From positions 212,997 to 276,996 of the forward strand of contig CAJYNG010000022.1 of NCBI GenBank assembly GCA_913775725.1: DNA of 64,000 nucleotides, written 5' to 3'. This DNA comes from an uncultured Stenotrophomonas sp. Its GTDB lineage: Bacteria > Pseudomonadota > Gammaproteobacteria > Xanthomonadales > Xanthomonadaceae. Position numbers and translations under genes: made by a program. A model generated the notes under the pieces. That model was not told the origin of the DNA. It worked only from the letters and a program-made list of their open reading frames with translations, and searched no databases. The stretch's first letter is position 1. Each line of letters starts with the position of its first letter. Below are positions 7,775 to 64,000 of this stretch, in pieces.

Positions 7775-7788
7775 GACGGCGCACAGGA

Positions 7789-8226
7789 TCAGTACACGGC
7801 CAGATGACTGCAACCACGCCGCTGTGGTTGCCCTTCCATCGTCACCTGCACACTGGCCAGCGTGTCCACGCCTTCGGTGTTGCGGCACGACTCGTGCTTG
7901 ATCTCGACGATGGTCGGCTGCTTGTCCAGCTCACCGTTGAGGACGATCAGCGAACCGGGTGCATCGGCCGGCTGGCCGAGGTAGCGCAGCACGCCCTTGT
8001 GGGTGCGGCCATCGGCACTGAGGCTGGCGTCGTGGTTGCCCTTGCCGGTGGAGGCGATCTCGATGCGCCAGCCGGCACCACCGCCGGCGAAGGCCGGCAC
8101 CGGACTCAGGTCGGCAGCGATGGAAGGATGGCGAGGCGCGTCGGCGCTGGTCCGGGAAGCGGTCGAAGCACAGCCGGCCAACAACCCGGCCAGCAGTGCC
8201 GTGGCAACCACAGGGCGAAAGATCAT
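7789..8226 (-). CDS. Putative lipoprotein, about 145 aa
   Basis: MIFRPVVATALLAGLLAGCAS is a lipoprotein signal with lipobox LLAGC. I prefer the ATG at 8224-8226; an in-frame GTG nine bases upstream is the alternative. The mature part is a small beta-rich domain (GWRIEIASTGKGNHDASLSADGRTHKGVLRYLG) with two late Cys (ESCRNTEG and RRGCSHL). Function unknown. It ends 14 bases before the GNAT start on the same strand, so the two may share a transcript. Confidence 0.65.
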   Translation of the reverse strand: MIFRPVVATALLAGLLAGCASTASRTSADAPRHPSIAADLSPVPAFAGGGAGWRIEIASTGKGNHDASLSADGRTHKGVLRYLGQPADAPGSLIVLNGELDKQPTIVEIKHESCRNTEGVDTLASVQVTMEGQPQRRGCSHLAVY

Positions 8227-8295
8227 GGAGGGCACCTGCAGCGATCGGAAGCCCAGTCTAGGCAGGACCGCGTACGCCGGCGATGAATGCCACGA

Positions 8296-10038: not shown

Positions 10039-10200
10039 GCAGAATTCCCCTGAAGTGCGGCTCACTGTAGCGAGCGGCTCCGGCGGCGCCAAGCCAGCGC
10101 CGTACGATCCGCAGGGGTGGATATAGCGCAGCGCGCGCGAACGCGCCGACAACGCCGGCGCCCCCCGTCCAGCCGGTCAGATGCGACAGGTCACGCCGGG

Positions 10201-11226
10201 TCAGATCCAGCGCTGGTCGACCAGTTCGCGCTTCACGTAGGCGTAGAACACCGGCGCCGCCACCAGACCGGGCAGGCCGAACGCCGCTTCCATCACCAGC
10301 ATGGCCAGCAGCAGCTCCCAGGCGCGCGCCTGGATTTCACCGCCGACGATACGCGCGTTGAGGAAGTATTCCAGTTTGTGGATCACGATCAGGTACAGCA
10401 GCGCGGCCACTGCCACGTAGAACGAGACCGACAGCGCGACGATGGTGATGATCGTGTTGGAGATGATGTTGCCCACCACTGGCAGCAGGCCGGCGATGAA
10501 GGTGATCAGTACCAGCGTCTTGGACAGTGGCAGGTGCACGCCGAACAGCGGCAGCACGCCCAGCAGGAAGATCGCGGTGAACACGGTGTTGAGCAGGGAT
10601 ATCTTCACCTGCGCGAACACCACCTGGCGGAACGCGGTGGCCAGGCGGCTGGTGCGCCCGATCAGTTCCTGCGCCAGCGGCCCCATCTTCGGCAGCGGAA
10701 GTTCGTCGTACAGCGCGATCATCGCGCCCAGCACCATGCCGATCAGCACGCGTACGCCCACCTGCACCACCGACGTTCCGGCCACGCCCAGCTGGCGCTG
10801 GTGCTCGGCAGCCCAGTCATTCAGCGCCGCGCGCAGCGCCGGCATGTCCTCGGGGATATACGGCTGCAGCAGCGCCGGCACCTGGTGGCGCGATGAATTG
10901 AGGATGTCCATCAGCCGCGCCAGCAGTGCGTCCGGCCCGCCGGTCTCGTTGCGGAAGAACGACGCCACACCGATCCCGGCCAGCACCAGTCCGCTGATGA
11001 TGATCGCCGACAGCACGATCACCGCGATTGCCCGTGCCCGTCCCGGCGGCAGCCTGCCTTCCACGGTCGACGCCAGCACGTGGGTCAGCTGGAACACCAG
11101 CAGCCCCGACAGCAGGGTTACCACCAGGCCCAGCTTCAACGCCAGCCACATGCCCAGCAGCATCATCAGCCAGGCCGCGATCCTCGGAACAGGGGGCTTG
11201 GGCTGGGCAACAAGGGCGTCTTGCAT
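10201..11226 (-). CDS. AI-2E-family (PerM-type) membrane transporter
   Basis: A 341-aa polytopic protein starting MQDALVAQPKPP; the frame is open upstream but this ATG precedes the first membrane helix by a typical short tail. Eight or so hydrophobic segments and the late family region (FIAGLLPVVGNIISNTIITIVALS) identify the UPF0118/AI-2E exporter family. Members include E. coli TqsA and PerM-like proteins of uncertain substrate; some act as Na/H antiporters. There is no regulatory or pathway context here: the neighbours are a GGDEF protein and a PEP-mutase-family enzyme. Confidence 0.85.
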   Translation of the reverse strand: MQDALVAQPKPPVPRIAAWLMMLLGMWLALKLGLVVTLLSGLLVFQLTHVLASTVEGRLPPGRARAIAVIVLSAIIISGLVLAGIGVASFFRNETGGPDALLARLMDILNSSRHQVPALLQPYIPEDMPALRAALNDWAAEHQRQLGVAGTSVVQVGVRVLIGMVLGAMIALYDELPLPKMGPLAQELIGRTSRLATAFRQVVFAQVKISLLNTVFTAIFLLGVLPLFGVHLPLSKTLVLITFIAGLLPVVGNIISNTIITIVALSVSFYVAVAALLYLIVIHKLEYFLNARIVGGEIQARAWELLLAMLVMEAAFGLPGLVAAPVFYAYVKRELVDQRWI

Positions 11227-11352
11227 GGGCGGCACGTCCGGGCGGGGTGGCCCATGGTAGAGGATTGCCGTGGTGATGCCGCGTGCAGGATGAATGGCCG
11301 TTACGCCGCGATTGCAGAGGCGGCCGACCGGCATCGGCCCGGCCCCCTCGGC

Positions 11353-12204
11353 TCAGGCTCGATCCAGGGCGAGGTAACGAGCGGTACGCACGATCGCCTC
11401 GCGTTCGCCGAAGCTGGCCAGATCGCCGGCAATACGCCCACTGTCCCCGCTCGCGGCGATCTCCTGCAGCGTGCGCTGCATGGCCCGGATCGCGGCCCGT
11501 TGCAGGTCCGAGGGGATGATGACCAAGCGGTAGTCGAGTTCGGCCAGCCGTTCCACTGGCACCAGCGGCGTCTTGCCACTGTGGAACATGTTGATCAGCT
11601 TCGGCCCGGGCACCCGCTGCGAGATCGCCTCGATCTGTTCCAGGGTTTCCGGTGCCTCGACGAAGATCATGTCCGCGCCCGCGTCCACATAGGCCTGCGC
11701 CCGTCCGATGGCTGCGTCCAGGCCCTCGCAGGCGATGGCATCGGTACGCGCAATGATCATCAGCTCCGGATCGTGCCGTGCCTGGCAGGCGACCCGGATC
11801 TTCGTGCACATCTCGGCTGCGTCGACCAGTGTCTTGTCGTCCAGGTGCCCGCAGCGTTTGGGGAACGCCTGGTCCTCGATATGCAGCGCGGCGACGCCTG
11901 CCCGCTCGAATGCACGCACCGTACGCTCCACGTTGGCGCTGCCGCCGAAACCGGTGTCGGCGTCGGCGACTACCGGCAGGTCGCAGGCATCCACGATCCG
12001 CTCGATCTGCGCCAGTACTTCGGTGAATCCGAGCAGCCCGATGTCGGGCACGCCGGCCGAACGCGCGATGGCGCCGCCACTGGCATACACCGCCTCGAAC
12101 CCGGTCAGCTCCACCAGGCGGGCCGACAGGCCGTCGAAGACCCCCGGTGCGATCACGCTGCGGCCGTGCCCGAGCAGGTGACGCAGCTGGCGTGTCTTCT
12201 TCAT
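11353..12204 (-). CDS. Isocitrate lyase/PEP mutase-family enzyme
   Basis: A 283-aa TIM-barrel enzyme starting MKKTRQLRHLLGHG, with AGGGAGA just upstream of the ATG at 12202-12204. Family motifs: ASGGAIARS (substrate loop), VVADADTGFGG (metal-binding Asp pair), HIEDQAFPKRCGHL, and a later IIARTDA. The lid motif differs from methylisocitrate lyase: it has PKRCGH, which occurs in methylisocitrate lyase, PEP mutase and carboxyphosphonoenolpyruvate synthase relatives. The exact substrate, a C-C bond cleaved 2-hydroxyacid or oxaloacetate, cannot be chosen. It is transcribed divergently from a LysR gene 108 bases away, which probably regulates it. Confidence 0.83.
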   Translation of the reverse strand: MKKTRQLRHLLGHGRSVIAPGVFDGLSARLVELTGFEAVYASGGAIARSAGVPDIGLLGFTEVLAQIERIVDACDLPVVADADTGFGGSANVERTVRAFERAGVAALHIEDQAFPKRCGHLDDKTLVDAAEMCTKIRVACQARHDPELMIIARTDAIACEGLDAAIGRAQAYVDAGADMIFVEAPETLEQIEAISQRVPGPKLINMFHSGKTPLVPVERLAELDYRLVIIPSDLQRAAIRAMQRTLQEIAASGDSGRIAGDLASFGEREAIVRTARYLALDRA

Positions 12205-12312
12205 GTGGTCTCCCTTGCAGATGGACATTTGGCGTGGGATACCGATGATGTTGTCGCCACCGGCGACCGTCCAATACCGTGTTCGTACAGCATCAGAACG
12301 TCTGAGGTTCCA

Positions 12313-13209
12313 ATGGAACTGCGCCACCTGCGCTACTTCGTCATGACCGCCCAGCTGCAGAGCTTCACCAGGGCCGCCGAAGCCCTGCACATTGCCCAGC
12401 CGCCGCTGGGGCAGCAGATCCGTGCACTGGAGGAAGAGATCGGAACGCCGTTGTTCCATCGCCAGGGACGCGGCATCGTGCTCAGCGATGCCGGGCGGGT
12501 GTTCTGGAAAGCGGCGGAGGACATCCTCGCGCGCGTCGACCAGGCCAAGGAAGAGGCATTGCGCGCCGCGCGCGGCGAGGTCGGCACGTTGACACTGGGG
12601 TTGACCGAATCGGCAACCTACAACGAGGTGGTCACCGCGCTGATGCGCAGCTTCCAGCGGGCGCATCCGGCAGTGCAGGTGCAGCTGGTCGAAGATGGCA
12701 GTGAATCCCTGGTCCGGCGCCTGGATGACGGCGAGCTCGATGCAGTGATCGTGCGCCCGCCGTTTTCCGGTAGCGGTGAACGGGTGACACAGCAACTCAG
12801 TGCCGAGCCGCTGGTGGCGGTGCTGCCGGCCGATCACGCGTTGGCGTGCCGGACGAGCATCGCGCTGGTCGAGCTGCGCGATGAGCGTTTCATCCTGTTC
12901 TCGCGGAAATCGGGCCAGGGCCTGAGTGCAGACGTGGTCGCCGCCTGCCGCAGCCAGGGGTTCACTCCGGCCATCCAGCAGGAAGCGCCGCAGGTGGCTT
13001 CAGCGATCAACCTTGCCGCCGCCGGCCTGGGTATCGCCATTGTCCCGGCGTCCATGCAGAGCATGCACCGGAGCGGCCTGGCCTTTGTTGCACTGGAGCT
13101 GGGCATGCCGACCACCACGCTGCAGTTGGCGGTGCGTTGCGATCCTCGCGCGACGGCCGCCCAGCTGCTGGCCTGCGCCAGAGACGTGGCAACACCTCAT
13201 TCGCCATAG
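12313..13209 (+). CDS. LysR-family transcriptional regulator
   Basis: A 298-aa regulator with the standard layout: winged HTH at 1-60 (MELRHLRYFVMTAQLQSFTRAAEALHIAQPPLGQQIRALE) and a two-lobed periplasmic-binding-type effector domain from about 90 to the end (GTLTLGLTESATYNEVV). Its sequence suggests the BenM/CatR-like subgroup. It is divergent from the PEP-mutase-family gene, the usual position for a LysR and its target. Its 3' end overlaps the convergent GGDEF gene by 13 bases. Confidence 0.9.
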   Translation: MELRHLRYFVMTAQLQSFTRAAEALHIAQPPLGQQIRALEEEIGTPLFHRQGRGIVLSDAGRVFWKAAEDILARVDQAKEEALRAARGEVGTLTLGLTESATYNEVVTALMRSFQRAHPAVQVQLVEDGSESLVRRLDDGELDAVIVRPPFSGSGERVTQQLSAEPLVAVLPADHALACRTSIALVELRDERFILFSRKSGQGLSADVVAACRSQGFTPAIQQEAPQVASAINLAAAGLGIAIVPASMQSMHRSGLAFVALELGMPTTTLQLAVRCDPRATAAQLLACARDVATPHSP

Positions 13210-14249
13210 CTGGCGTTGTTCTTGCCCTGCCGCTTGGCGTGGTAGAGCGCTCGGTCGGCCAGTGCCAGCCAGTCCTCGACACTGCCACCACGCGGCGTGG
13301 CGGCAATGCCGATGCTTACGCTGAACTCCACGCCCGGCGTGATCTGGCGCGCGGCCTCGAGCAGATGCAGGCGCACCCGCTCGGCCACGTGCATCGCATC
13401 GACGGGCGCGCAGTCGTGCAACAGCACCACGAACTCATCGCCTCCCAGCCGCGCCGGGGTATCACCGGGCCGCGCAAACGTGCGCAGTGTTGCAGCGATA
13501 TGCCGCAGTACCTCGTCGCCCGCGCGGTGGCCAAGCGAATCATTGATGCGCTTGAAGTCATCCACATCGAGCATCAACAGGCAGGCAAAGCCGCCCTGGC
13601 CCTGCGCCCGGTCCAGTGCCTGCTGCGCACGCAGGATCAGGAAGCCACGGTTGGCCAGCTCCACCAGCGGATCCATCCGGCTCAGCCGCTGCAGCTGCCG
13701 GTTCTGCGATTTGACCCGGCGTGCCAGCTGCCAGCTGAGGATGCTCAGCCCGATGCCGTAGACGAACAGGAACGGCACACTGAGCACGATCGTGCGCTGC
13801 GAGGAAACGGGTTGGTAAGGGAAGCCGAGCGCCCACCAGGTGATCGCGAATCCCAGCACCAGCGCCAGCGTGGCCCGCATCGCCAAGCGCACGCCACCGG
13901 CGGCAATCTTGTCGGCGACCAGCAGCGCAGCGAACAACGCGCTGGGGACCGCGCTCAGCGCCATGAAGGCGATCCAGCCGCCACCGAAGAAGGAGTCGGC
14001 AACCATGCTGCGGAACTGCGCTTGTGCGGGCTGACGGGCGCGCTGGGTCAGCACCAGCGCAAGCGCCGGCCACACCAATGCATTGAGCAACAGCAACGCC
14101 CAGGCCCACAGGCCGTCCTGACGCTCAAGAATGATCGAGGCGATGGGAATCGCACCCAGCCCATTGCCGACGAAGCGCATCCAGCCGATGCGACGTGCCG
14201 CGCCGATGCCTTCGACTGCGACTTCCGTCGAGTCAGTCAAGAACGGCAT
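13197..14249 (-). CDS. MASE2-GGDEF diguanylate cyclase
   Basis: A 350-aa integral-membrane diguanylate cyclase resembling E. coli DgcC (AdrA). Residues 1-185 hold about five membrane segments of MASE2 type (GWMRFVGNGLGAIPIASIILE; ALVLGFAITWWALGFPY). The GGDEF domain follows with active site LGGDEFVVLL and I-site RPGD five residues before it, so product inhibition is likely. ATG chosen at 14247-14249. The 3' end overlaps the LysR gene convergently by 13 bases. DgcC-type enzymes promote matrix production; whether this one does is not shown. Confidence 0.9.
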   Translation of the reverse strand: MPFLTDSTEVAVEGIGAARRIGWMRFVGNGLGAIPIASIILERQDGLWAWALLLLNALVWPALALVLTQRARQPAQAQFRSMVADSFFGGGWIAFMALSAVPSALFAALLVADKIAAGGVRLAMRATLALVLGFAITWWALGFPYQPVSSQRTIVLSVPFLFVYGIGLSILSWQLARRVKSQNRQLQRLSRMDPLVELANRGFLILRAQQALDRAQGQGGFACLLMLDVDDFKRINDSLGHRAGDEVLRHIAATLRTFARPGDTPARLGGDEFVVLLHDCAPVDAMHVAERVRLHLLEAARQITPGVEFSVSIGIAATPRGGSVEDWLALADRALYHAKRQGKNNASYGE

Positions 14250-14363
14250 AGCCGACCCCCTTGCGCGATCGCACGTTCCACCCAGCCCCTTGCCGGGCTG
14301 CCCATGCCGAGTCTGACAGCTCTGCGTCAATTCGGGATCAAGAACTCGGCAGCGGCCCTGCCC

Positions 14364-15371
14364 TCATCCGGCCCTGGGTGCAGCCGTCGAGCCCCGCAGC
14401 ATCAGGCTGAAATCCAGCGTCTGCTGCAGCGGCACATCCACGTGTTCGATGATGGCAAGCAGCAGGTTGACCGCACGCTCACCAATCTCCCGCATCGGCT
14501 GCCTGATCGTTGTCAGCGGCGGCGTGAGGTAGCGCGAGGAGGCCAGGTCGTCAAAGCCGACGATGGACAGGTCCTCCGGCACGCGGATGCCCAGCTCCCG
14601 GCAGGCTGCCAGGGTACCCAGCGCCATCTGGTCGCTGAAACAGAAGACCGCAGTCGGTACCGGCGCGGCGGCCAACATCGCCATCGCGGCCGCATGGCCC
14701 GACTCCACCGAAAAGTCGCCCGGCACGATGTTCAGCTGGCGCAGGCGTCCACGCGCCTTGCCGGCCGCCCGGACCCCTTCCAGCCGTTGCTGGTGCAGCG
14801 GATTGTCGGGGGGGCCACCGACCACCGCAATGCGTTCGTGTCCCAGCCCATACAGGTGTTCCATCACCGCGCGCGCGGCGGCGGCATTGTCGATGTGGAC
14901 GCTGGGAATGCCCAGCGCGGGATCGAACTCGCAGCCGTTGACCACCGGCGCGGCGGCACCCCGCTGTTCGACGATGTCACGCGCCGTGGGTGGCAGGCGA
15001 TGCCCCAGCACGATCATGCCGTCGGCCTCGTTGCGCCGGAGCATCTGTGCATAGCGCTCCTCGCGATCCGGTTGATGCTGGGTGTCCCCCAGCAGGACCG
15101 CGTAGCCAACGGCCTGCGCTGCGTCCTCCGCACCCTGCAGGATCTGGGCGAAGAACGGATTGGCGATGTCCGGGACGGTGACCAGGATCTTGCCGCTGCG
15201 CTGGGTCTTGAGCGTGCGGGCCACCGTGTTGGGCACATAGCCCAGCGCAGCGGCGGCCTGCTCGATGCGCGCACGGGTGGCCGGCAGGACTTTGTCCGGC
15301 CGCGAAAGCGCCCGCGACACCGTACCTGCGGAGACGCCGACGTGCTTTGCGATGTCGTAGATGGTGGCCAT
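14364..15371 (-). CDS. LacI-family repressor of the 3-keto glycoside cluster
   Basis: A 335-aa LacI/GalR regulator: HTH at 1-25 (MATIYDIAKHVGVSAGTVSRALSRPDKV), hinge helix (GYVPNTVARTL), then a sugar-binding periplasmic-type core ending with SIVGFDDLASSRYLTPPLTTIRQP. It lies divergent from the TIM-barrel/MFS operon. A perfect LacI-type palindrome, TGCAATCGATTGCA, sits 66 bases upstream of its start and again at 24140-24153, upstream of the converging operon. I infer it represses both operons and itself and releases on a sugar ligand, likely a keto-sugar or glycoside. Confidence 0.9.
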   Translation of the reverse strand: MATIYDIAKHVGVSAGTVSRALSRPDKVLPATRARIEQAAAALGYVPNTVARTLKTQRSGKILVTVPDIANPFFAQILQGAEDAAQAVGYAVLLGDTQHQPDREERYAQMLRRNEADGMIVLGHRLPPTARDIVEQRGAAAPVVNGCEFDPALGIPSVHIDNAAAARAVMEHLYGLGHERIAVVGGPPDNPLHQQRLEGVRAAGKARGRLRQLNIVPGDFSVESGHAAAMAMLAAAPVPTAVFCFSDQMALGTLAACRELGIRVPEDLSIVGFDDLASSRYLTPPLTTIRQPMREIGERAVNLLLAIIEHVDVPLQQTLDFSLMLRGSTAAPRAG

Positions 15372-15392
15372 GGCGTTAGTTCTCCTGCCCGC

Positions 15393-15405
15393 TGTGCACT
15401 GCACA
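15393..15405. promoter_or_regulatory. Imperfectly spaced palindrome TGTGCACTGCACA
   Basis: A short inverted repeat (TGTGC-ACT-GCACA) in the divergent region between the LacI gene and its target operon. It could be a second regulator site, for example for a CRP-like protein. It is weak evidence on its own. Confidence 0.25.
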
Positions 15406-15436
15406 ACAGGTCCTGCGTGAGCCCCTGCTAGGATAA

Positions 15437-15450
15437 TGCAATCGATTGCA
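15437..15450. promoter_or_regulatory. LacI operator TGCAATCGATTGCA (copy 1)
   Basis: A perfect 14-bp palindrome with central CG, the typical LacI/GalR operator form. It is 17 bases upstream of the TTG start of the first operon gene and overlaps a GATAAT (15432-15437) that could be a -10. Binding here would block both divergent directions. An identical copy lies at 24140-24153. Confidence 0.85.
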
Positions 15451-15466
15451 TCGAGGGCGAATCACG

Positions 15467-16519
15467 TTGAAGACGCTCAAGGGTCCAGCGCTGTTCCTGG
15501 CGCAGTTCATCGGCGACGCAGCTCCTTTTGATCGGCTGGACACGCTGGCCGGGTGGGCCGCGGGTCTGGGCTATTCTGGCGTACAAGTCCCGACCACGGC
15601 GCCCCACCTGTTCGATCTGGCCGAGGCCGCGCGCAGCCAGGCGTACTGCGACGATATTGCCGGCATGCTGGCCGGTCATGGCGTGCAGATCACCGAGCTG
15701 TCCACCCATCTGCAGGGGCAGCTGGTCGCAGTCCATCCGGCCTACGACAGCCTGTTTGACGGATTCGCACCCGCGGACAAGCGCGGCGATCCCGCCGCCC
15801 GCCAGGCCTGGGCAGTGGAACAGCTACTGTTGGCCGCCAAAGCCAGCCAGCGCCTGGGGCTGACCGCGCATGCCACGTTCTCCGGCGCATTGGCCTGGCC
15901 CTATTTCTATCCCTGGCCGCAGCGCCCACCGGGACTGGTGGAGGAGGCCTTCGCCGAACTCGGCCGCCGCTGGCGCCCCATCCTCGATGCGTTCGATGCC
16001 TGCGGCGTGGACCTGTGCTTCGAGATCCACCCGGGGGAGGACCTGCACGACGGCGCGACCTTCGAGCGCTTCCTCGATGTGGTCGATCACCACCCGCGCG
16101 CGAAGATCCTGTACGACCCCAGCCATCTGCTGCTGCAGCAGATGGACTACCTGGGTTTCATCGACCGCTACCACGCGCGCATCGGCGCCTTCCATGTGAA
16201 GGATGCGGAGTACCACGCCAGTGCCAGCAGCGGCGTTTACGGCGGCTACCAGAACTGGATCGATCGCCCGGGCCGGTTCCGTTCACCCGGTGACGGCCAG
16301 ATCGACTTCAAGGCGATCTTCTCCAAGCTCGCCCAGTACGACTTCCCCGGATGGGCGGTACTGGAATGGGAGTGCTGCCTGAAGCACCCGGAAGACGGCG
16401 CACGCGAGGGTGCCGCCTTCATCCGCGACCACATCATCCGGGTCACCGAGCGCGCCTTCGACGACTTCGCCGACAGCGGCACCGACGCCGCATCACTGCA
16501 CCGCATGCTGGGAATCTGA
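15467..16519 (+). CDS. TIM-barrel sugar isomerase/epimerase family protein
   Basis: A 350-aa cytoplasmic AP-endonuclease-2/xylose-isomerase-like TIM barrel. I chose the TTG at 15467 (LKTLKGPALFLAQFIGD); an in-frame TTG 21 bases upstream lies within the operator. Metal-binding carboxylate and His motifs are visible: CFEIHPGED, LYDPSHLLLQ, AFHVKDAEY and VLEWECC. Relatives include IolE, and YcjR of E. coli, which epimerises 3-keto-glucosides at C4 beside a Gfo/Idh 3-dehydrogenase. With the Gfo/Idh gene downstream, a 3-keto-sugar isomerase or epimerase role is my inference. First gene of the operon. Confidence 0.82.
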   Translation: MKTLKGPALFLAQFIGDAAPFDRLDTLAGWAAGLGYSGVQVPTTAPHLFDLAEAARSQAYCDDIAGMLAGHGVQITELSTHLQGQLVAVHPAYDSLFDGFAPADKRGDPAARQAWAVEQLLLAAKASQRLGLTAHATFSGALAWPYFYPWPQRPPGLVEEAFAELGRRWRPILDAFDACGVDLCFEIHPGEDLHDGATFERFLDVVDHHPRAKILYDPSHLLLQQMDYLGFIDRYHARIGAFHVKDAEYHASASSGVYGGYQNWIDRPGRFRSPGDGQIDFKAIFSKLAQYDFPGWAVLEWECCLKHPEDGAREGAAFIRDHIIRVTERAFDDFADSGTDAASLHRMLGI

Positions 16520-16546
16520 GCTGACACCGCCCCGGGAGGGCAAGCC

Positions 16547-17764
16547 ATGACGCACGCCATGTCGCGCTTGGGCGCGATGATGTTTCTGCAGTTCTTCATC
16601 TGGGGGGCGTGGTTCGTCACCCTCGGTACCTACCTGGTGCAGGGCCCGCTGCAGGCCAGCGCCAGCCAGGTGGCCACGGCCTTCCTCAGCCAGTCCATCG
16701 GCGCCATCGTAGCGCCGTTCCTGGTCGGCCTGATCGCGGATCGCTACTTCGCCGCGCAGCGCATCCTGGCGGTGCTGCACCTGGCCGGTGCGGTGCTCAT
16801 GTGGCTGGCGTCCACGGCCACCAGCTTCAGCATGTTCTCCGCCTGCGTCATGGGCTACATGCTGCTGTTCATGCCGACGCTGGCACTGGCCAACAGCGTA
16901 GCCATGCGGCACATGCAATCGCCCGAGAAGCAGTTCCCACTGGTGCGGGTAGCCGGCAGCATCGGCTGGATCATCGCCGGCGTGCTGATCGGCTGGCTGG
17001 GCTGGGAGCAGGCGCACAGGCTTGAACTCACCTTCCGGATGGCCGCGCTGGCATCACTGCTGCTGGGCCTGTATGCCTTCACCCTGCCGCACACACCGCC
17101 GCTGGCCAAGCAGCGCGACGCCGGGCTCGGGCAGATCCTGGGGCTGGATTCGTTGCGTCTGCTGAAGTCGCGTGCCTATCTGGTGTTCTTCCTGGCTTCC
17201 ATCGCCATCTGCATCCCGCTGTCGTTCTACTACAACTTCACCAACCCCTATCTCAACGATCTGGGCGTGCGCGGCGCGGCCGGCCTGCAGTCGCTGGGCC
17301 AGGTCTCCGAAGTGCTGCTGATGCTGGCCATGCCGTTCCTGTTCGTGCGGCTGGGGGTGAAGACCATGCTGGCGGTCGGCATGGCCGCCTGGGTGGTGCG
17401 CTATGCCCTGTTCGCCTTCGGCGATGCGGGCAGCGGTTTCTCCCTGCTGGTGATCGGCATCGTGCTGCACGGCATCTGTTACGACTTCTTCTTCGTCACC
17501 GGCCAGATCTACACCGATGCACATGCCGGCCCCGACGCACGCAGCAGCGCGCAGGGGTTCATCACCCTGGCCACCTACGGCGTGGGCATGCTGATCGGCA
17601 CCTTCCTGTCGGGCGCGGTGGTGGAGCACTACACCACCGCCGCAGGGCCGGACTGGCAGCAGATCTGGCTGTTCCCGGCCGGCGTCGCGCTGGTGGTGCT
17701 GGTCGCCTTCCTGCTGCTGTTCCGCGACCGCCCGGCGGTCGTGGCCACGCCTTCTACGCCCTGA
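16547..17764 (+). CDS. MFS permease, nucleoside:H+ symporter (NupG-like) family
   Basis: A 405-aa inner-membrane transporter with about twelve hydrophobic segments. The start MTHAMSRLGAMMFLQFFIWGAWFVTLGTYL and the motif GLIADRYFAAQRIL are typical of the NupG/XapB family. In Bacteroidetes and Xanthomonads such permeases often occur with sugar-oxidoreductase clusters rather than nucleoside genes. Here it lies between a TIM-barrel isomerase and a Gfo/Idh dehydrogenase, so a sugar or keto-sugar substrate is more likely than a nucleoside. GGGAGG precedes the ATG. Second gene of the operon. Confidence 0.85.
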   Translation: MTHAMSRLGAMMFLQFFIWGAWFVTLGTYLVQGPLQASASQVATAFLSQSIGAIVAPFLVGLIADRYFAAQRILAVLHLAGAVLMWLASTATSFSMFSACVMGYMLLFMPTLALANSVAMRHMQSPEKQFPLVRVAGSIGWIIAGVLIGWLGWEQAHRLELTFRMAALASLLLGLYAFTLPHTPPLAKQRDAGLGQILGLDSLRLLKSRAYLVFFLASIAICIPLSFYYNFTNPYLNDLGVRGAAGLQSLGQVSEVLLMLAMPFLFVRLGVKTMLAVGMAAWVVRYALFAFGDAGSGFSLLVIGIVLHGICYDFFFVTGQIYTDAHAGPDARSSAQGFITLATYGVGMLIGTFLSGAVVEHYTTAAGPDWQQIWLFPAGVALVVLVAFLLLFRDRPAVVATPSTP

Positions 17765-17776
17765 GGATCCCCGTCG

Positions 17777-18901
17777 ATGCCCAAGCTTGGAATCGCCATC
17801 GTCGGCGCCGGCATGATCGGAGCAGTGCATCGTCGTGCGGCACTGCTGGCGGGCGCCGAGGTACGCGGCGTGGCCGCCTCGTCACCGCAGCGCGCGCATG
17901 AGGCAGCGCAGTCCTGGAATGTCCCGCGTGCCTATCGGGATATCGAGGAGGTGATCGCCGATCCACAGGTACAGGTCGTGCATGTGTGCACGCCCAACCA
18001 TCTGCACCGCGCCATGGCACAGGCCGCGCTGGAAGCTGGCAAGCACGTGATCTGCGAGAAGCCGCTGGCGACGACACTGGACGATGCGCAGGCACTGGCA
18101 GGTTTGGCCGCGTCGACCGGATTGGTTGCCACGGTGCCCTTCGTCTACCGCTACCACCCGGTAGTGCGCGAGGCGCGCGCCCGTATCGCCCACGGTGAAC
18201 TGGGGCCGTTGCACCTCATCCACGGCAGCTACCTGCAGGACTGGTTGTTGGACCCGGCCAGCAACAACTGGCGCGTGGACCCCGCGCTGGGAGGCGCTTC
18301 GCGTGTGTTCGCCGACATCGGCTCGCACTGGTGCGACCTGGTGGAGTGGATCAGCGGCGAACGCTTCACCGAGGTCAGCGCGGCATTCTCCACGGTAATC
18401 GCCGAGCGCGGCGCCGTCAGCGGGCAGAGCTTCAGTACGCCAACGGCCGCCAGCGCGATGCAGGCCGTCACCAGCGAGGACGTGGCCGCGGCGATGTTCA
18501 GGACCGGCGCTGGCACGCTGGCGTCATTGACGGTCAGCCAGGTCTCGGCCGGACGCCACAACCGCCTCTGGTTCGAGATCGATGGCGCCAAGGCCAGCGT
18601 GGCCTTCAATCAGGAGGATGCCGAACGACTCTGGATCGGCCTGCCCGACCAGCGCGAGGAGATCTTCGTGCGCGGGCCAGCCGCCGGCAGCGCCGAACAA
18701 CGCCGTCTTTCCGTGCTGCCGGCCGGGCATGCACAGGGCTACGCCCAGTGCTTCGAAGCGTTTGTCGCCGACACCTATCGCGCCATCGAAGGCGATCAGC
18801 CGCAGGGGTTGCCCACCTTCGAAGACGGCCTGCGCTCGGCGCAGATCGTTGATCGTGTCATTGCATCGGCCAGGTCACGCGCCTGGACCACCATCGGTTG
18901 A
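17777..18901 (+). CDS. Gfo/Idh/MocA-family NAD(P)-dependent oxidoreductase
   Basis: A 374-aa dehydrogenase. The N-terminal Rossmann fold begins IAIVGAGMIGAVHRRAAL (GxGxxG). The family signature CEKPLATT follows, with Lys as a catalytic residue, and the C-terminal alpha/beta domain carries DIGSHWCDLVEW (catalytic Asp and His). E. coli YcjS of this family is a glucoside 3-dehydrogenase. This supports a role in oxidising or reducing C3 of a glycoside or of the liberated 3-keto-hexose. Starts 12 bases after the permease stop; cytoplasmic. Confidence 0.88.
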   Translation: MPKLGIAIVGAGMIGAVHRRAALLAGAEVRGVAASSPQRAHEAAQSWNVPRAYRDIEEVIADPQVQVVHVCTPNHLHRAMAQAALEAGKHVICEKPLATTLDDAQALAGLAASTGLVATVPFVYRYHPVVREARARIAHGELGPLHLIHGSYLQDWLLDPASNNWRVDPALGGASRVFADIGSHWCDLVEWISGERFTEVSAAFSTVIAERGAVSGQSFSTPTAASAMQAVTSEDVAAAMFRTGAGTLASLTVSQVSAGRHNRLWFEIDGAKASVAFNQEDAERLWIGLPDQREEIFVRGPAAGSAEQRRLSVLPAGHAQGYAQCFEAFVADTYRAIEGDQPQGLPTFEDGLRSAQIVDRVIASARSRAWTTIG

Positions 18902-18920
18902 AACCCGGGAGGATCTGTTG

Positions 18921-19784
18921 ATGAAAGCTCTTTTCCGTAGAAGTGCAAGCCTCATCCTGCTGTTCGCTGCCCTGCCCACCTTCGCAGACGAAGCGGCCAG
19001 CACGCAGAAACCGATCGCGGTGCAGATGTACACCCTGCGCAACGCCGGGTCGCTCGAGCAGCAGTTGAAGATCGTCCACGACGCGGGCGTCCACGCGGTG
19101 GAAACAGTCGGTACGCAGAACACCAGCGCCGCCGAACTCAAGCAGCTGCTGGACCGGTACTCGATCAAGGCGATTTCATCGCATGTGCCGCTGGCCGAGC
19201 TGCGCAGCAATCTGGATGGGGTGGTGACCTTCAACCGGTCGATCGGCAACACGACGCTGGTGGTGCCGTACCTGGACAAGAAGGATCGCCCAACCGATGC
19301 CGCGGGCTGGACTGCATTGGGCCAGGAACTGGGCCGGATCGCAAAGCAGGTGCGCGGCAAGGGCATGCGCCTGGCCTATCACAACCACGACTTCGAACTG
19401 GCCGACTTCGATGGCAAGACCGGACTGGAGCTGCTGTTCGCCGCCGCGGGTCCAGACCTGCAGACCGAACTGGACCTGGCCTGGGTCGCGCGTGCGGGCC
19501 TGGACCCTGCGGTGATGCTTGAGAAATTCCGCGGCCACGTATTCGCGGTGCATGCCAAGGACAATGCGCCCAAGGGCCAGGCCCAGGACGAAGACGGATT
19601 CGCCGCCGTGGGCCAGGGCGTGCTGGACTGGAACGCGATCCTGCCTGCTGCAGCAGCCGCCGGCGTCCACTGGTACATCATCGAGCACGACCAGCCACGC
19701 GATCCGGCCAAGGTCATCCAGATCGGCGCGGACTACCTGCGTGAACATCTGGCCGTCAGCCAACCTGCTCGCGCACAGCGCTGA
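18921..19784 (+). CDS. Secreted TIM-barrel sugar isomerase/epimerase-like protein
   Basis: A 287-aa protein starting MKALFRRSASLILLFAALPTFADE, with GGGAGGA upstream. The signal peptide sends it to the periplasm, unlike the first TIM barrel of this operon. The barrel has metal/substrate motifs LAYHNHDFEL, TELDLAWV and FAVHAKDNAP and ends with YIIEHDQP. Periplasmic members of this family sit in glycoside oxidation clusters, where they may epimerise or dehydrate keto-glycosides; the reaction is not established here. Fourth gene of the operon. Confidence 0.82.
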   Translation: MKALFRRSASLILLFAALPTFADEAASTQKPIAVQMYTLRNAGSLEQQLKIVHDAGVHAVETVGTQNTSAAELKQLLDRYSIKAISSHVPLAELRSNLDGVVTFNRSIGNTTLVVPYLDKKDRPTDAAGWTALGQELGRIAKQVRGKGMRLAYHNHDFELADFDGKTGLELLFAAAGPDLQTELDLAWVARAGLDPAVMLEKFRGHVFAVHAKDNAPKGQAQDEDGFAAVGQGVLDWNAILPAAAAAGVHWYIIEHDQPRDPAKVIQIGADYLREHLAVSQPARAQR

Positions 19785-19800
19785 TGCGAAGGAGCCTCGC

Positions 19801-20109
19801 TTGGACACTCGCTTGAAACTGAGCTTCACCCTGGCCGCGGCTCTGTGCGGCACGACGCTGGCCACCACGGCCTGGTGCAAGGACGACCCTGCGGCCGGCG
19901 CGAAGCTCTACACCGCGAACTGCGTGGCCTGCCACGGCGCCGATCGTGCGGGCATGCCGGGCGCGTTCCCGGCACTCACCGACATCGGCAAGCGCATGGC
20001 ACCGGCGCAGATCAAGGAAAAGATCAGCAAGGGCGGTGGACTGATGCCGCCCTTCTCCCAGCTGTCGCAACAGGAAATCGATGACATCGCCAGCTATCTG
20101 GCGAAGTAA
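19801..20109 (+). CDS. Periplasmic c-type cytochrome
   Basis: A 102-aa class I cytochrome c with signal peptide (LKLSFTLAAALCGTTLATTAWC) and one haem-binding CVACH at residues 41-45. Met82 in GGGLMPPF is the likely axial ligand, and the end QEIDDIASYLAK is typical. The start is a TTG at 19801 preceded by AAGGAG. It is the likely electron acceptor of the GMC oxidoreductase encoded by the converging operon, as LacB is for LacA in Caulobacter lactose oxidation. Last gene of the plus-strand operon. Confidence 0.9.
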   Translation: MDTRLKLSFTLAAALCGTTLATTAWCKDDPAAGAKLYTANCVACHGADRAGMPGAFPALTDIGKRMAPAQIKEKISKGGGLMPPFSQLSQQEIDDIASYLAK

Positions 20110-25165: not shown

Positions 25166-26197
25166 ATGACGATCAAAGGCAAAGCCACCTCCCTGGACAT
25201 CGCCCACCTGGCCGGGGTCTCCCAGCCGACCGTGTCGCGAGCCCTGCGTGGCAGCCCGATGGTCAACGCCGAGACCCGCGAGCGCATCCTGCGCATCGCC
25301 CGCGAGCTGAACTACAAGGTCGACAAGAACGCCTCCAGCCTGCGCCTGCGCAATGCCGGCACCCTGGCCCTGCTGTTCTTCGAGGACCCGACCAACGACG
25401 ACTCGCTGATCAACCCGTTCTTCCATTCGATGCTGGGCTCGATCACCCGCGCCTGCGCGCTGCACGGGCAGGACCTGCTGGTCTCGTTCCAGCAACTGTC
25501 CACCGACTGGCAGGCCGATTACGAGGACAGCAACAAGGCCGACGGCATCATCCTGCTCGGCTACGGCGACTATCACGAATCACGCGACCGCCTGCAGCGG
25601 CTGGTCGAACAGGGCACGCACTTCGTGCGCTGGGGCGCCGCCCTGCCCGGCCAGCCAGGCGTGTCGATCGGCAGCGACAACTTCCAGGGCGGGCACGACA
25701 TCACCACCCACCTGCTGCAGCGGGGCTGCCGCCGCATCGCCTTCCTCGGCCATGCCTCCAGCCATTACCCCGAATTCCAGGAGCGCTACCGCGGCCATGT
25801 CGCGGCCCTGCAGGACCACGGCCTGGCCGCCGAACCGGCGCTGCAGCACGATGCGATCACCACCGAGGCCTCCGGCCAGGAGGCCTGCCAGGCGCTGCTG
25901 GCGCGCGGCGAACCGATCGATGCGATCTGCGCCGCCAGCGACCTGATCGCCATCGGTGCGATGCGCGCCCTGCGCGAGGCCGGGCTACGGGTGCCACAGG
26001 ACGTGGCGGTGACCGGCTTCGACGACATCCCGCTGGCGGCCTCGGTGTCTCCGGCGTTGACCACGGTCCAGCAGGACACCAAGCAGGCCGGCCAGCTGCT
26101 GGTGGAGCGCCTGCTGACGCTGATCGGCCGGCAACCGGTGGAGGGCCAGAGCATCCCGGTGAAGCTGGTGGTGCGGGAATCGTCGCTGCGCCGGTAA
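25166..26197 (+). CDS. LacI-family transcriptional regulator
   Basis: A 343-aa LacI/GalR repressor. The HTH is [25 protein letters not shown] with hinge [16 protein letters not shown]. The effector-binding core contains [18 protein letters not shown] and ends [28 protein letters not shown]. The ATG at 25166 was chosen over an upstream in-frame ATG that would add a non-conserved tail. Its targets are not adjacent: the downstream gene is an ABC transporter. One candidate regulon is the maltodextrin locus 7 kb away, which has three identical 14-bp operators, but nothing in the sequence proves this. Confidence 0.9.
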
Positions 26198-59080: not shown

Positions 59081-59536
59081 ATGTTGCGCGTCACCAAACT
59101 CACCGATTACGCCACCGTCGTACTGACCGTGCTCGCCGCCCGTCCGGGCGAGGTGCTCAGTGCCACCGAGCTGGCCGAATTCACCGGTCTGGAGCCGCCC
59201 ACCGTCAGCAAGGTACTCAAGCCGCTGGCGCAGGCCGGCCTGGTTGAAGGCCTGCGCGGCGTGCGTGGCGGCTACCGCCTGACCCGCCCGGCCATCGAGA
59301 TCTCGCTGTTCGAAGTGGTCGAAGCGATGGAAGGGCCGCTGGCCCTGACCGAATGCAGCCACGACCACCACCAGTGTGGCATGGCGCCCAAGTGCGGCGC
59401 GCGCAGCAGCTGGCGGCTGATCAACGACGTGGTTTCCGAGGCCCTGCGCGATGTCACCCTCGCCCAGATCCTGCCCCCTCTCCCCCTTGCCGATGACGAA
59501 CAGCGCCGCACCATCGCTGTCGACGTCGTCTCCTGA
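59081..59536 (+). CDS. Rrf2-family SUF operon regulator
   Basis: A 151-aa iron-sulfur sensing repressor like IscR/SufR. HTH MLRVTKLTDYATVVLTVLAARPGEVLSATELAEFTGLEPPTVSKVL, wing GVRGGYRLTRP, and conserved Cys at 92, 99 and 105 (ECSHDHHQC and PKCG) that can bind a cluster. In SUF operons such regulators repress the operon when clusters are plentiful. It lies 18 bases upstream of sufB and looks like ordinary Stenotrophomonas sequence. Probably autoregulated through the promoter at 59020. Confidence 0.92.
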   Translation: MLRVTKLTDYATVVLTVLAARPGEVLSATELAEFTGLEPPTVSKVLKPLAQAGLVEGLRGVRGGYRLTRPAIEISLFEVVEAMEGPLALTECSHDHHQCGMAPKCGARSSWRLINDVVSEALRDVTLAQILPPLPLADDEQRRTIAVDVVS

Positions 59537-59554: not shown

Positions 59555-61030
59555 ATGGCCACCGAAACCATCGAAAACGTCGCCCACGACGACACCCCCA
59601 ACCGCGAGATCCACGAGCAGCTCGGCCGCAAGTATTCGGCCGGCTTCATCACCGAGATCGAATCGGACTCCCTGCCGCCTGGCCTGGACGAGGACACCAT
59701 CCGTGCCCTGTCGGCCAAGAAGGAAGAGCCGGAGTGGATGACGCAGTGGCGCCTGGACGCCTACCGTCACTTCCTGACCATGCCGATGCCGGACTGGGCC
59801 AAGCTGGAGATCGCGCCGATCGACCTGCAGGCGCTCAGCTACTACTCCGCGCCGAAAGGCCCGAAGTACGCCTCGCTGGATGACGTGCCGAAGGAGCTGC
59901 TCGACACCTACGACAAGCTGGGCGTGCCGCTGCATGAGCGCGCCAAGCTGGCCGGCGTGGCGGTGGACGCGGTGTTCGACTCGGTGTCCGTCGGTACCAC
60001 CTTCCGCAAGGAACTGGCCGAGAAGGGCATCATCTTCTGCTCGATGTCCGAGGCCATCAAGGAACACCCGGAGCTGGTCCGCCAGTACCTGGGTACCGTG
60101 GTGCCGGTGGGCGACAACTATTTCGCCGCGCTCAACTCGGCGGTGTTTTCCGATGGCAGCTTCGTGTTCATTCCCAAGGGCGTGCGCTGCCCGATGGAAC
60201 TGAGCACCTATTTCCGCATCAATGCCGGCCACACCGGCCAGTTCGAGCGCACCCTGATCGTGTGCGAGGACAAGGCCTACGTGTCCTACCTGGAAGGCTG
60301 CACCGCGCCGATGCGCGACGAGAACCAGCTGCACGCCGCAGTGGTCGAGCTGGTCGCCCTGGAAGACGCGGAGATCAAGTACTCCACCGTGCAGAACTGG
60401 TACCCGGGCGACGAGAACGGCGTCGGCGGCATCTACAACTTCGTCACCAAGCGTGCGCTGTGCCAGGGTAAGAACAGCAAGGTGTCGTGGACGCAGGTCG
60501 AAACCGGGTCGGCGGTGACGTGGAAATATCCGTCCTGCGTGCTGGCGGGCGACGGCTCGGTCGGCGAGTTCTACTCGGTCGCGGTGACGAACAATCGTCA
60601 GCAGGCCGATACCGGCACCAAGATGATCCATCTCGGCAAGAACACGCGGTCCACCATCGTGTCCAAGGGGATTTCGGCCGGACACTCGGACAACACCTAT
60701 CGCGGGTTGGTTCGCGTGGCGGCGACCGCCGAGAATGTCCGTAACTTCACCCAGTGCGACAGCCTGCTGCTGGGCGACCAGTGCGGCGCACATACCGTAC
60801 CCTATATCGAGGTGAAGAACCCCAGCGCGCAGATCGAGCATGAGGCGACGACCAGCAAGATCAGCGAGGACCAGCTCTTCTACGCGATGAGCCGTGGGTT
60901 GGACCAGGAAGCCGCGGTGGCGCTGATCGTCAACGGTTTCGCGCGGGAAGTCTTGCAGCAGCTCCCGATGGAGTTTGCGGTTGAAGCGCAGAAGCTGCTG
61001 GGGATTTCGCTCGAAGGGAGCGTGGGGTGA
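59555..61030 (+). CDS. sufB: SufB, Fe-S cluster scaffold subunit (chimeric gene)
   Basis: A 491-aa SufB, scaffold of the SufBC2D complex that builds Fe-S clusters. The frame is intact from end to end and the family pattern holds, including the C-terminal [23 protein letters not shown] region in two pieces. Base use changes at about 60480-60510 (residue 309-320): upstream Tyr is 3 TAT to 11 TAC and Gly has no GGG in 20 codons; downstream Gly has 7 GGG in 16 codons and TTG and ACG appear. So the 5' part looks like Stenotrophomonas and the 3' part like a sphingomonad. Overlaps the next ORF by four bases. Confidence 0.9.
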
Positions 61031-61356
61031 TTTTGTTCGCAGCGCTTTTGTCATTGGCGGGATCGGTGGGGCAGCAAATGCCTGCGCCGCCCGCCAACGA
61101 GATTAGCGTGGTGGGCAACAAGCTGCGTAAATTGCAACTAGACCTCAATGTCGATGCAGGTCGGATGACGGCTTGCCGTGCCAAGGTTTCGAGTGGCGAC
61201 CGCTTCATCGACGACGTTGCCTGTGAATCGGCCCGTGTTTGTATAGGCAAGCGCTCCTCTGCCCGGATCGGGCTTATGAATTGCATCAATGATGGTGTCG
61301 TCGCGGCGGTGGCCCGCGAGCGCGCCAAGGAAGAAAGCCGCAATGCTGAAAATTGA
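61027..61356 (+). CDS. Small putative secreted protein between sufB and sufC
   Basis: A 109-aa ORF starting with GTG at 61027 that overlaps the sufB stop (GTGA). The N-terminus [17 protein letters not shown] is a short signal peptide-like stretch. The mature part has three Cys ([20 protein letters not shown]). Its end overlaps the sufC start by 14 bases. Such an extra small ORF in the suf operon is, as far as I recall, usual in sphingomonads and not in Stenotrophomonas. Function unknown. Confidence 0.6.
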
Positions 61357-62095
61357 AAACCTCCACGCCGAAATCGACGGCAAGCCGATCCTCAAGGGCC
61401 TGACGCTCGAGGTGAATGCGGGTCAGGTCCATGCGATCATGGGGCCTAACGGCGCGGGCAAGTCGACGCTGGGCTATGTGCTGGGCGGGCGTCCCGGTTA
61501 CGAAGTGACCGAGGGTTCGGTGACGTTCGACGGCGTCGACCTGCTCGAGCTGGAGCCGAACGAGCGCGCCGCCGCCGGGCTGTTCCTGGGCTTCCAGTAT
61601 CCGGTCGAAATCCCCGGCGTGTCCAACGTCCAGTTCCTGCGCGAGAGCCTGAACGCCCAGCGCGGCCAGCGTGACGAAAAGCCGCTGTCGGGGGGCGAAT
61701 TCCTGAAGCTCGCCCGTGCGCAGGCCGATGGGCTGGGGCTGAACCAGGACATGCTCAAGCGTCCGGTCAATGTCGGCTTCTCGGGCGGTGAGAAGAAGCG
61801 CAACGAGATGGTCCAGATGGGCATCCTGAATCCCAAGTTCGCGATCCTCGATGAAACCGATTCCGGCCTCGACATCGACGCGCTGCGCATCGTCGGCGAC
61901 GGCATCAACCGCATTATGCGCGCGCCCGACAAGGCGGTGCTGCTGATCACCCATTATCAGCGGCTGCTCGACTATGTGCAGCCCGACCGGGTGCATGTGC
62001 TGGCCGATGGCCGCATCGTGCGTTCGGGCGGCCCCGAACTCGCGCTCGAACTGGAGCGTGAGGGCTATGCGGGCGTCGAGGGAGCCGCCGCGTGA
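61343..62095 (+). CDS. sufC: SufC, ATPase of the SUF complex
   Basis: A 250-aa ABC-type ATPase that energises SufBD. Walker A is GPNGAGKST, signature FSGGEKKRNE, Walker B FAILDETDSGLDIDAL and a late His in LLITHYQRLL. The start at 61343 gives [17 protein letters not shown]. Tyr codons are 5 TAT to 1 TAC, opposite to the upstream window. Belongs to the foreign-looking segment. Overlaps sufD by four bases (GTGA). Confidence 0.95.
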   Translation: MLKIENLHAEIDGKPILKGLTLEVNAGQVHAIMGPNGAGKSTLGYVLGGRPGYEVTEGSVTFDGVDLLELEPNERAAAGLFLGFQYPVEIPGVSNVQFLRESLNAQRGQRDEKPLSGGEFLKLARAQADGLGLNQDMLKRPVNVGFSGGEKKRNEMVQMGILNPKFAILDETDSGLDIDALRIVGDGINRIMRAPDKAVLLITHYQRLLDYVQPDRVHVLADGRIVRSGGPELALELEREGYAGVEGAAA

Positions 62096-63171
62096 CGACC
62101 ACGCTGGAACTCCCTTCGACCCGCGAGGAGGCGTGGCGCTGGGCCGATATCGACGCGCTGCGCCGCGCGGCGGAGAGCGAGCGGGCAGTGCCGGTCGCGG
62201 GGGCGGATCGCTTCCTCGACTTGGGCGGCGCGCGGCTGATCTTCGTCGACGGTGTGCTGGATGAAAGCGCCAGCGATCTCGGCCCGGTGCAACTGACCCA
62301 GATTGACGCCAGCGACCATCCGCTCGGGCGTCAGGCATTGGGTCGCGGCTGGTCGCTGCGGCTGGAGCGCGATGCGGTCGCCGAGCCCGTGCAGATCGTC
62401 CATGTCGCCAGCGGTGCGGCCAATCACCTGCCCGCCGAGATCGTGCTGGCCGAGGATGCGGCCGCGCAGGTCTATGAGACCTATGTCGGGCGCGGCTGGA
62501 CCAATAGGCTGACGCGGGTGAAGCTGGCGGCGTCGGCGCGGTTGATGCGGGCGGTGCGGCTGCTGCAGGACGACGGCTTTGTTTCGCTGCGCGAGGAAGC
62601 CGAGCTGGGCGAGGGCGCGAGCCTGACCGCGACCTTCCTGGCGGCGGGGACGATGGGTGTGCGGATCGACGGCGGCATTACTCAGACCGGTGACGGGGCC
62701 TATGCTGAGTTCGGCGGCGCGCTGCTGACCAAAGGTGAATTGAAGCAGGAATGTGCGGTGGCCCTCCGCCATGCCGCACTCAACGGTCAGAGCCATCAGC
62801 TGTGGCGTGCGGTCGCCGCCGATCGCAGCCAGGCAAGCCTCGCCGCACGGGTCGAAGTGGCGCGCGATGCGCAGAAGACCGATGGCGAGCAGAGCTTGCG
62901 CGGCCTGCTGCTCCAGCGGACGGCCACGGTGAACCTGAAGCCCGAGCTGGAAATCTTCGCCGACGACGTGAAGTGCGCGCATGGTGCGACCGTGGGCGAG
63001 CTTGATGCCAAGGCGCTGTTCTACATGCAGAGCCGGGGAATCCCAAAGCCGCGCGCGCAGGCTATGCTGACCCGCGCCTTCGTGGCGGATGCGATCGACC
63101 GGATCGGCAACGAGGTGGTGCGCGAAGCCTTTGCGGCGGACGCGGACGCCTGGCTGGAGGCGGCGCTTTGA
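62092..63171 (+). CDS. sufD: SufD, scaffold subunit of the SUF complex
   Basis: A 359-aa SufD (GTG start at 62092, MTTTLELPSTREEAWRWADIDALRR). It has the C-terminal SufBD core: LKPELEIFADDVKCAHGATVGELDAKALFYMQSRGIPKPRAQAMLTRAFVADAI, in pieces, with the conserved CAHGAT. It pairs with SufB and SufC for cluster assembly. Codon use is of the foreign type (3 TAT to 1 TAC). Its stop overlaps the sufS start. Cytoplasmic. Confidence 0.93.
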   Translation: MTTTLELPSTREEAWRWADIDALRRAAESERAVPVAGADRFLDLGGARLIFVDGVLDESASDLGPVQLTQIDASDHPLGRQALGRGWSLRLERDAVAEPVQIVHVASGAANHLPAEIVLAEDAAAQVYETYVGRGWTNRLTRVKLAASARLMRAVRLLQDDGFVSLREEAELGEGASLTATFLAAGTMGVRIDGGITQTGDGAYAEFGGALLTKGELKQECAVALRHAALNGQSHQLWRAVAADRSQASLAARVEVARDAQKTDGEQSLRGLLLQRTATVNLKPELEIFADDVKCAHGATVGELDAKALFYMQSRGIPKPRAQAMLTRAFVADAIDRIGNEVVREAFAADADAWLEAAL

Positions 63172-64000
63172 CGAGCGCCGCGCCTCTCGATCGGGTGGCA
63201 GATTTTCCGGCGATCCCGGACGGCTGGGCCTATCTGGATACCGCCGCGACCGCGCAGAAGCCGCAAGGAGTGATCGACGCGATCACCCGCGCCTATGACA
63301 CCAGCTATGCCACCGTGCATCGCGGCGTCTATCAGCGTTCGGCCGACATGACCGTGGCGTATGAGAAGGCGCGCGAGGCGACGGCGCGGTTCATCGGCGC
63401 TGGGTCGGCGAACGAGATCGTCTTCACGCGCGGCGCGACCGAGGGGATCAACTTGGTCGCGCAGTGCTGGGCCGCGACCAACCTGAAGGCGGGCGATCGC
63501 ATCTTGCTGTCGATGCTGGAGCATCACTCCAACATCGTGCCGTGGCAGATGGTGGCGGAACGGCTGGGCGTCGCGATCGACGTCTTGCCGCTGACGGTCG
63601 ATCACCGCATCGACCTGGATGCGATGGAACGGATGCTGACGCCCGCGCATAAGCTGGTGTCGCTGGGCCATGTGTCGAATGTGCTGGGCTCGGTGCTCGA
63701 CGGGCGGCGGGCGGCCGATCTGGCGCATGGCTTGGGTGCGAAGATTTTGCTCGACGGGTGCCAGGCGGTGCCGCGCATCATGGTCGATGTGAAGGCGCTT
63801 GATTGCGACTTCTATGTCTTCTCCGGCCACAAGCTTTATGGCCCGACCGGCATCGGCGTGTTGTGGGCGCGGCCCGAATTGCTGGAGGCCATGCCGCCCT
63901 ATCAGGGTGGCGGCTCGATGATCGACCGGGTGAGCTTCGAGAAGACCACCTATGCCCCGCCGCCCGGCCGGTTCGAGGCGGGGACGCCGCATATCGTCGG
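63168..64000 (+). CDS. sufS: SufS cysteine desulfurase, partial (C-terminus off the window)
   Basis: The first 277 residues of a class-V aminotransferase-type PLP enzyme that takes sulfur from cysteine for cluster assembly. A TTG start at 63168 overlaps the sufD stop. Visible motifs: YLDTAATAQKPQGVIDA, TVHRGVYQRSADMT, HHSNIVPWQ, GCQAVPRIMVD region and SGHKLYGPTG with the PLP Lys. The frame is open to the edge. All nine Tyr codons are TAT, opposite to the rest of the window. The catalytic Cys loop would lie beyond the edge. Confidence 0.9.
   Translation, partial: MTSAAPLDRVADFPAIPDGWAYLDTAATAQKPQGVIDAITRAYDTSYATVHRGVYQRSADMTVAYEKAREATARFIGAGSANEIVFTRGATEGINLVAQCWAATNLKAGDRILLSMLEHHSNIVPWQMVAERLGVAIDVLPLTVDHRIDLDAMERMLTPAHKLVSLGHVSNVLGSVLDGRRAADLAHGLGAKILLDGCQAVPRIMVDVKALDCDFYVFSGHKLYGPTGIGVLWARPELLEAMPPYQGGGSMIDRVSFEKTTYAPPPGRFEAGTPHIV

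Follow-up and report, generated by a model that had tools for sequence, protein, structure and literature searches.

A sufB gene passing from Stenotrophomonas-like to Sphingomonas DNA at a contig end, and its reciprocal counterpart: very probably a chimera of assembly

Contigs that join two species are a known artefact of contaminated or metagenomic assemblies. The sufB locus described here resembles them in that the join lies in a conserved gene at a short identical run, the foreign part extends to the contig end and several contigs are affected; it differs in that both products of the sufB crossover are found in one assembly. A literature search for a contaminated or Sphingomonas-chimeric Stenotrophomonas genome gave no match, and a more general one on chimeric contigs and contamination brought up work on the improvement of metagenome bins and on genomes or transcriptomes of eukaryotes. 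In G031, G005 and other members of the host genus, the suf operon has its sufB in one piece, whereas here it is split over two contigs, C22 and C5, each capped by Sphingomonas DNA. The operon most similar to the foreign pieces is that of Sphingomonas parapaucimobilis YK209 (NZ_CP155753.1), in which the order is SUF regulator, sufB, a DUF559 gene, sufC, sufD and cysteine desulfurase. The foreign pieces of C22 and C5 match this operon side by side.

The window, that is, the whole stretch of 64,000 nucleotides that was analysed, corresponds to C22 212997-276996, and C22 ends at 276996. The assembly comprises 28 contigs and 4,559,886 bases. Foreign DNA makes up the last 3,544 bases of C22. The preliminary description had followed a foreign trend to the end of the window; the trend is real, and its extent is better given as reaching the end of the contig itself. 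The features are listed in Table 1. The regulator upstream of sufB, in which the best same-genus match is 99% in each of the 150-bp slices at 59100, 59250 and 59400, is presumably Rrf2-like, a name suggested by its position.

Table 1. Features at the suf end of the window (window coordinates)
Feature	Position	Strand	Basis or remark
Presumed Rrf2-like SUF regulator reading frame, native Stenotrophomonas-like DNA	59081..59536	+	ORF; start at the methionine of MLRVTKLTDYA
Hybrid sufB, host head and Sphingomonas tail	59555..61030	+	491-aa open frame
Host (Stenotrophomonas-like) part of sufB	59555..60412	+	Diagnostic columns; identity to same-genus sufB
Crossover: 44-bp stretch identical in C22 and C5	60413..60456	+	C5 counterpart 25871-25914, minus strand
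Foreign Sphingomonas DNA: sufB tail, small ORF, sufC, sufD and start of sufS	60457..64000	+	Runs to the end of C22
Small ORF between sufB and sufC, foreign	61027..61356	+	109 aa, GTG start
sufC, Sphingomonas	61343..62095	+	ORF, sequence matches
sufD, Sphingomonas	62092..63171	+	ORF, sequence matches
sufS (cysteine desulfurase), Sphingomonas	63168..64000	+	ORF; cut by contig end

A change of codon use within sufB had first drawn attention to the locus, and the counts then given proved exact. Positions 59555-60484 contain 20 Gly codons, none of them GGG, with a TAT : TAC ratio of 3 : 11 and no TTG; in 60485-61027, GGG accounts for 7 of 16 Gly codons and there are three TTG and five ACG codons. 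In sufC, sufD and the partial sufS together, TAT : TAC is 17 : 2. Fisher's exact test gives P values of 0.0014 (GGG) and 0.00016 (TAT/TAC), which are uncorrected and refer to contrasts chosen by eye after looking; the weight is therefore carried by the alignment. A 5-mer score trained on host-genus versus Sphingomonas-group loci is above zero in 6 of the 127 window steps, precisely those with starts from 60501 to 63001.

Comparison of 21 same-genus sufB sequences (19 genomes, two entered twice) with 13 from the Sphingomonas group yielded 270 separating columns; L181 and L182 were left out, their match being too short, and L007 was aligned and placed in neither group. All 180 diagnostic columns before 60413 are of host type in the window. 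Of the 89 after 60456, 78 are of Sphingomonas type, seven of host type and four of neither; these seven and four are unsurprising for a donor that departs from the consensus. Only one separating column, 60454, falls inside 60413-60456; C22 and C5 both show the host letter there, and six Sphingomonas-group sequences vary (C in L179, L184, L018 and L021; T in L180; G in L183). The first visible difference at the switch is at 60457. The alignment thus places the crossover within or at the end of 60413-60456, equivalent to SufB residues 287-301. A codon change inside an intact sufB frame, as originally proposed, is borne out; its proposed position, 60480-60510, is not, since the switch lies approximately 25-100 bp further left.

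Matches of 150-bp slices agree on the two sides. From 58500 up to 60449 the best match is a same-genus locus, at 97-99%, and from 60450 it is a Sphingomonas locus in every slice that has a match; those at 61050 and 61200 have none. The host part of sufB (59640-60412) is 92.5-97.4% identical to the 21 same-genus sequences and 70.2-77.6% to the 13 of the Sphingomonas group, while the corresponding values for the tail are 70.8-73.2% and 81.8-92.1%. The best taxa therefore differ on the two sides of the sufB switch.

The second suf locus of the assembly is on the minus strand of C5 (26,999 bp), near a contig end. Read on that strand, the first 1,085 bp are Sphingomonas-like and the sequence thereafter is host-like. 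To the left of the run shared with C22, 169 of 180 diagnostic columns are of Sphingomonas type, six of host type and five of neither; to the right, all 89 are of host type, the mirror image of the window. Along the sufB tail, sufC, sufD and sufS of C5, the 150-bp slices have their best same-genus matches at 92-100%. The displaced native sufB tail, sufC, sufD and sufS are thus present in the assembly, joined to a Sphingomonas sufB head, and the resulting hybrid SufB has 487 aa. On neither contig is the foreign DNA flanked by native DNA on both sides, as it reaches the contig end on both. Since both sufB crossover products occur in one assembly, an artefact can be argued without reads.

Exactly 44 identical bases are common to C22 and C5 at the switch. 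Another run of 44 bp common to the two contigs lies at 60293-60336, and it is also at 60293 that the longest exact sufB run among 273 pairs of same-genus and Sphingomonas-group reference sequences, again 44 bp, is found. Conserved sufB can therefore give identical runs of this length without any exchange. Within 60405-60465, the longest exact run among the same 273 pairs is 38 bp, and one of 44 bp occurs there only between C22 and C5.

In the host genus, all 21 sequences (19 genomes) contain one contiguous sufB, with a head like that of C22 and a tail like that of C5. Identity to the C5 tail is 91.2-98.2% and to the C5 head 72.7-75.2%, complementing the values for C22 given above. In G031 and G005 (loci L121 and L122), the genes downstream of sufB follow C5 too. 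A search for the Sphingomonas tail in 91 same-genus genomes, including the one analysed here (G000), revealed nothing above 77% identity among the matches listed in any of the 90 others; the best-scoring match in these was 75%, in sufC, and G078, one of the 90 and 85% complete, gave no more than a trace match to the tail. The best named relative of the host is Stenotrophomonas maltophilia 13146 (L007), which shares 92.1% identity with the host part of sufB. Part of the sufB head is also matched, at 91.5%, by a named record of Xanthomonas sacchari, which in addition matches 39% of 36000-60412 at 83.7%. The host would be described as Stenotrophomonas-like and no finer, a placement that rests on S. 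maltophilia 13146, with X. sacchari also matching.

Both foreign sufB pieces point to one source. In a plasmid collection of 72,556 records, the best match to window 60457-63998 is NZ_CP155753.1 (92.5% over 91% of the query; 111944-115657), and the best match to the 1,085-bp foreign head of C5 is the same record (92.3%; 110816-111898). The 45 bp between the two matches on NZ_CP155753.1 are accounted for by the 44-bp shared run and one unaligned end base. L021 (S. abaci) comes from genome G116; of the 295 genomes in the genus of G116, 235 could be scored and 60 could not, and the best was G230, which matches all 3,542 bases of the tail at 90%. Long parts of the tail are matched at 91-93% in G231, G209, G233, G210, G232 and G345. 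The genes dnaE, bamA, dxr and pyrH are found on other YK209 records of the plasmid collection; these records may be chromosome, and the 'plasmid' label may mean little.

Foreign DNA is not confined to the suf loci. Both ends of all 28 contigs were taken, and a 5-mer scan was made of 54 loci totalling 1,044,017 bases (all but the right end of C22). The scan picked up the foreign ends of C5, C9 and C14 and missed a Burkholderiales end on C27, which was found by BLAST with the loci of relatives; further chimeric ends may therefore exist in the assembly. Raised scores were also seen in low-GC stretches of L130, L133 and L148 (C4, C8 and C23, respectively) and, more weakly, in L132, L134, L142 and L158. 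A search for 16S rRNA found none in the assembly and detected it in 9 of 14 control genomes.

At the right end of C14, host DNA extends up to dnaE and is followed by Sphingomonas DNA to the contig end (L165 18327-20000). In 829 columns distinguishing two host-genus from four Sphingomonas-group dnaE sequences, the letters change over between L165 18326 and 18390 (C14 79726-79790), apart from a few exceptions on either side. This end is 90.9% identical to S. parapaucimobilis NZ_CP155749.1. The native dnaE tail, which would be carried by a reciprocal partner, was not found in the contig ends, nor in G000 (40 of 759 candidates scored). The right end of C14 and the left end of C22 are neighbours in the native order of G031, the match of L212 to C14 stopping at 5674 and that to C22 starting at 8905.

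Two further ends switch within gltA. On the right of C9 (L160, approximately 4650-20000), a host gltA head is followed by about 15.3 kb of alphaproteobacterial DNA with the order lpxB-lpxI-lpxA-lpxD-ompH-bamA-rseP-dxr-cdsA-uppS-frr-pyrH-tsf, the names being assigned from translations and partly borne out by annotations. Over 6.3 kb this DNA is collinear with G471 at 74%; G471 came out best among 190 genomes sampled from the class of G116, 149 of which had some match. On the right of C27 (L177, approximately 16400-20000), the sequence reads, from the end, Burkholderiales sdhA-sdhB-sdhE and gltA head (names partly assigned by the authors), followed by the tail of host gltA and the DNA downstream of it; Burkholderia stagnalis gave the best match to the foreign part, at 81.8%. 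An identical run of 35 bp is common to C9 and C27 at the gltA switch. Because different bacteria contributed the foreign parts, the two contigs do not represent reciprocal products of a single exchange, and reciprocity was found for sufB alone among the chimeric ends. At least three foreign sources thus contribute to the assembly, and the switches to them fall inside the conserved genes sufB, dnaE and gltA. A short repeat of approximately 100-300 bp, also present at about 2047-2300 in L160, was seen in dozens of copies in each of G000, G031 and G005, the copies being approximately 72-93% alike.

The sufB switch is almost certainly an artefact that arose when DNA of a contaminated or mixed sample was cross-assembled at conserved stretches, and not a product of recombination in a living cell. 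This reading is favoured by the reciprocal chimera on C5, with an exact 44-bp run at the switch, by the single Sphingomonas record that matches both foreign pieces side by side, and by the three further chimeric ends in dnaE and gltA, one from Sphingomonas and two from other donors. The same three lines of evidence uphold the first of the two readings offered in the preliminary description, a contaminated or metagenomic misassembly. The sequenced material would have contained a Stenotrophomonas-like organism together with DNA of at least three other bacteria, introduced by contamination or present in a mixed sample; one contaminating source would be a Sphingomonas close to S. parapaucimobilis. 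An identical stretch of 44 bases would be present in sufB of both organisms, and the two paths may have been crossed there by the assembler or when contigs were joined at a later step. C22 would then have received the host sufB head and the Sphingomonas tail, and C5 the Sphingomonas head and the host tail, sufC, sufD and sufS, leaving the host's own operon ordinary and simply divided between the two contigs. The join would thus have been made in assembly, by passage between organisms at short identity (44 bp in sufB and 35 bp in gltA). The Sphingomonas pieces stop after 3.5 kb on C22 and 1.1 kb on C5, at contig ends and inside genes, which fits a low-depth contaminant. Against misassembly, the reported contamination is only 2.72%, two wrong joins at one place require an assembler to cross paths rather than break them, reference pairs reach no more than 38 bp of identity at the switch, reciprocity is limited to sufB, and an exchange in a living cell would leave intact frames too.

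Such an exchange could take two forms. A circular Sphingomonas replicon carrying suf might have integrated into the host chromosome by a single (Campbell-type) crossover at the 44 bp, leaving the whole replicon between the junctions. Both observed junctions are what this topology would produce, the pieces on C22 and C5 are ordered accordingly, and the nearest relative has its suf operon on a record labelled as a circular plasmid. The interior of the replicon was sought in the assembly with 15.7 kb of NZ_CP155753.1, which took in the suf match of this one record with 4.9 kb of its upstream and 6 kb of its downstream flank, and the strong matches were solely to the suf part (query 4873-9716); outside it, with 40 of 455 candidates scored, matches were short or weak, at 68-69% identity across 144-286 bp or 77-89% across 35-76 bp. 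The possibly chromosomal nature of the other YK209 records in the plasmid collection also weakens the argument from the label, and integration cannot account for the chimeras in dnaE and gltA, whose foreign parts come from Sphingomonas, another alphaproteobacterium and a member of the Burkholderiales. Furthermore, the two sufB genes are approximately 72-74% alike, and 44 bp of identity is little for homologous recombination. Integration is on these grounds highly unlikely as the origin of the junctions, and that a Sphingomonas replicon resides in host sufB at the 44 bp, with two hybrid SufB proteins in one cell, is exceedingly improbable.

Alternatively, the tail of the suf operon could have been replaced by Sphingomonas DNA through horizontal transfer, the second reading of the preliminary description. 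In its favour, the reading frame is intact across the switch and identity to one donor group is high. However, the native tail, sufC, sufD and sufS persist on C5, where they are joined to the reciprocal Sphingomonas head; the foreign DNA stops at the contig end on both contigs; and the tail is matched above 77% in none of the 90 other same-genus genomes among the matches listed. Transfer is consequently extremely unlikely, and the C5 chimera and the other chimeric ends justify the rank below misassembly that recombination had been given. An origin without any foreign DNA, in which the codon shift would be ordinary between-gene variation in one genome, was also considered; nothing was found in its favour, and it is next to impossible and was rejected as already refuted by the identities of the tail to same-genus and Sphingomonas-group sufB and by the 5-mer score, which rises above zero only in the six steps over the foreign part.

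With assembly chimerism as the explanation, there is no biological novelty at this locus, and both the hybrid iron-sulfur gene and what looks like gene transfer are artefacts. The significance is one of data quality. Two intact and plausible hybrid SufB proteins (491 aa from C22 and 487 aa from C5) would mimic transfer between a gammaproteobacterium and an alphaproteobacterium, and the completeness and contamination values of the assembly (99.82 and 2.72) do not point to a chimera. The analysis flags the hybrid sufB, the foreign sufC, sufD and sufS at the end of the window, and the right ends of C5, C9, C14 and C27; anyone using C5, C9, C14, C22 and C27 should first split them at the junctions.

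Within the foreign tail, the small ORF between sufB and sufC that had been described is present, and the start of sufC overlaps it by 14 bp. Where YK209 has a DUF559 gene, the window has this 109-aa ORF, which has no significant match in the NZ_CP155753.1 stretch. Among 17 Sphingomonas-group loci, it is matched at 72% in L180 (G230) and weakly in L029 (39%) and L185 (29%), the remaining loci giving no match at E below 0.3. The gap between sufB and sufC is a variable spot in the suf operon of the Sphingomonas group.
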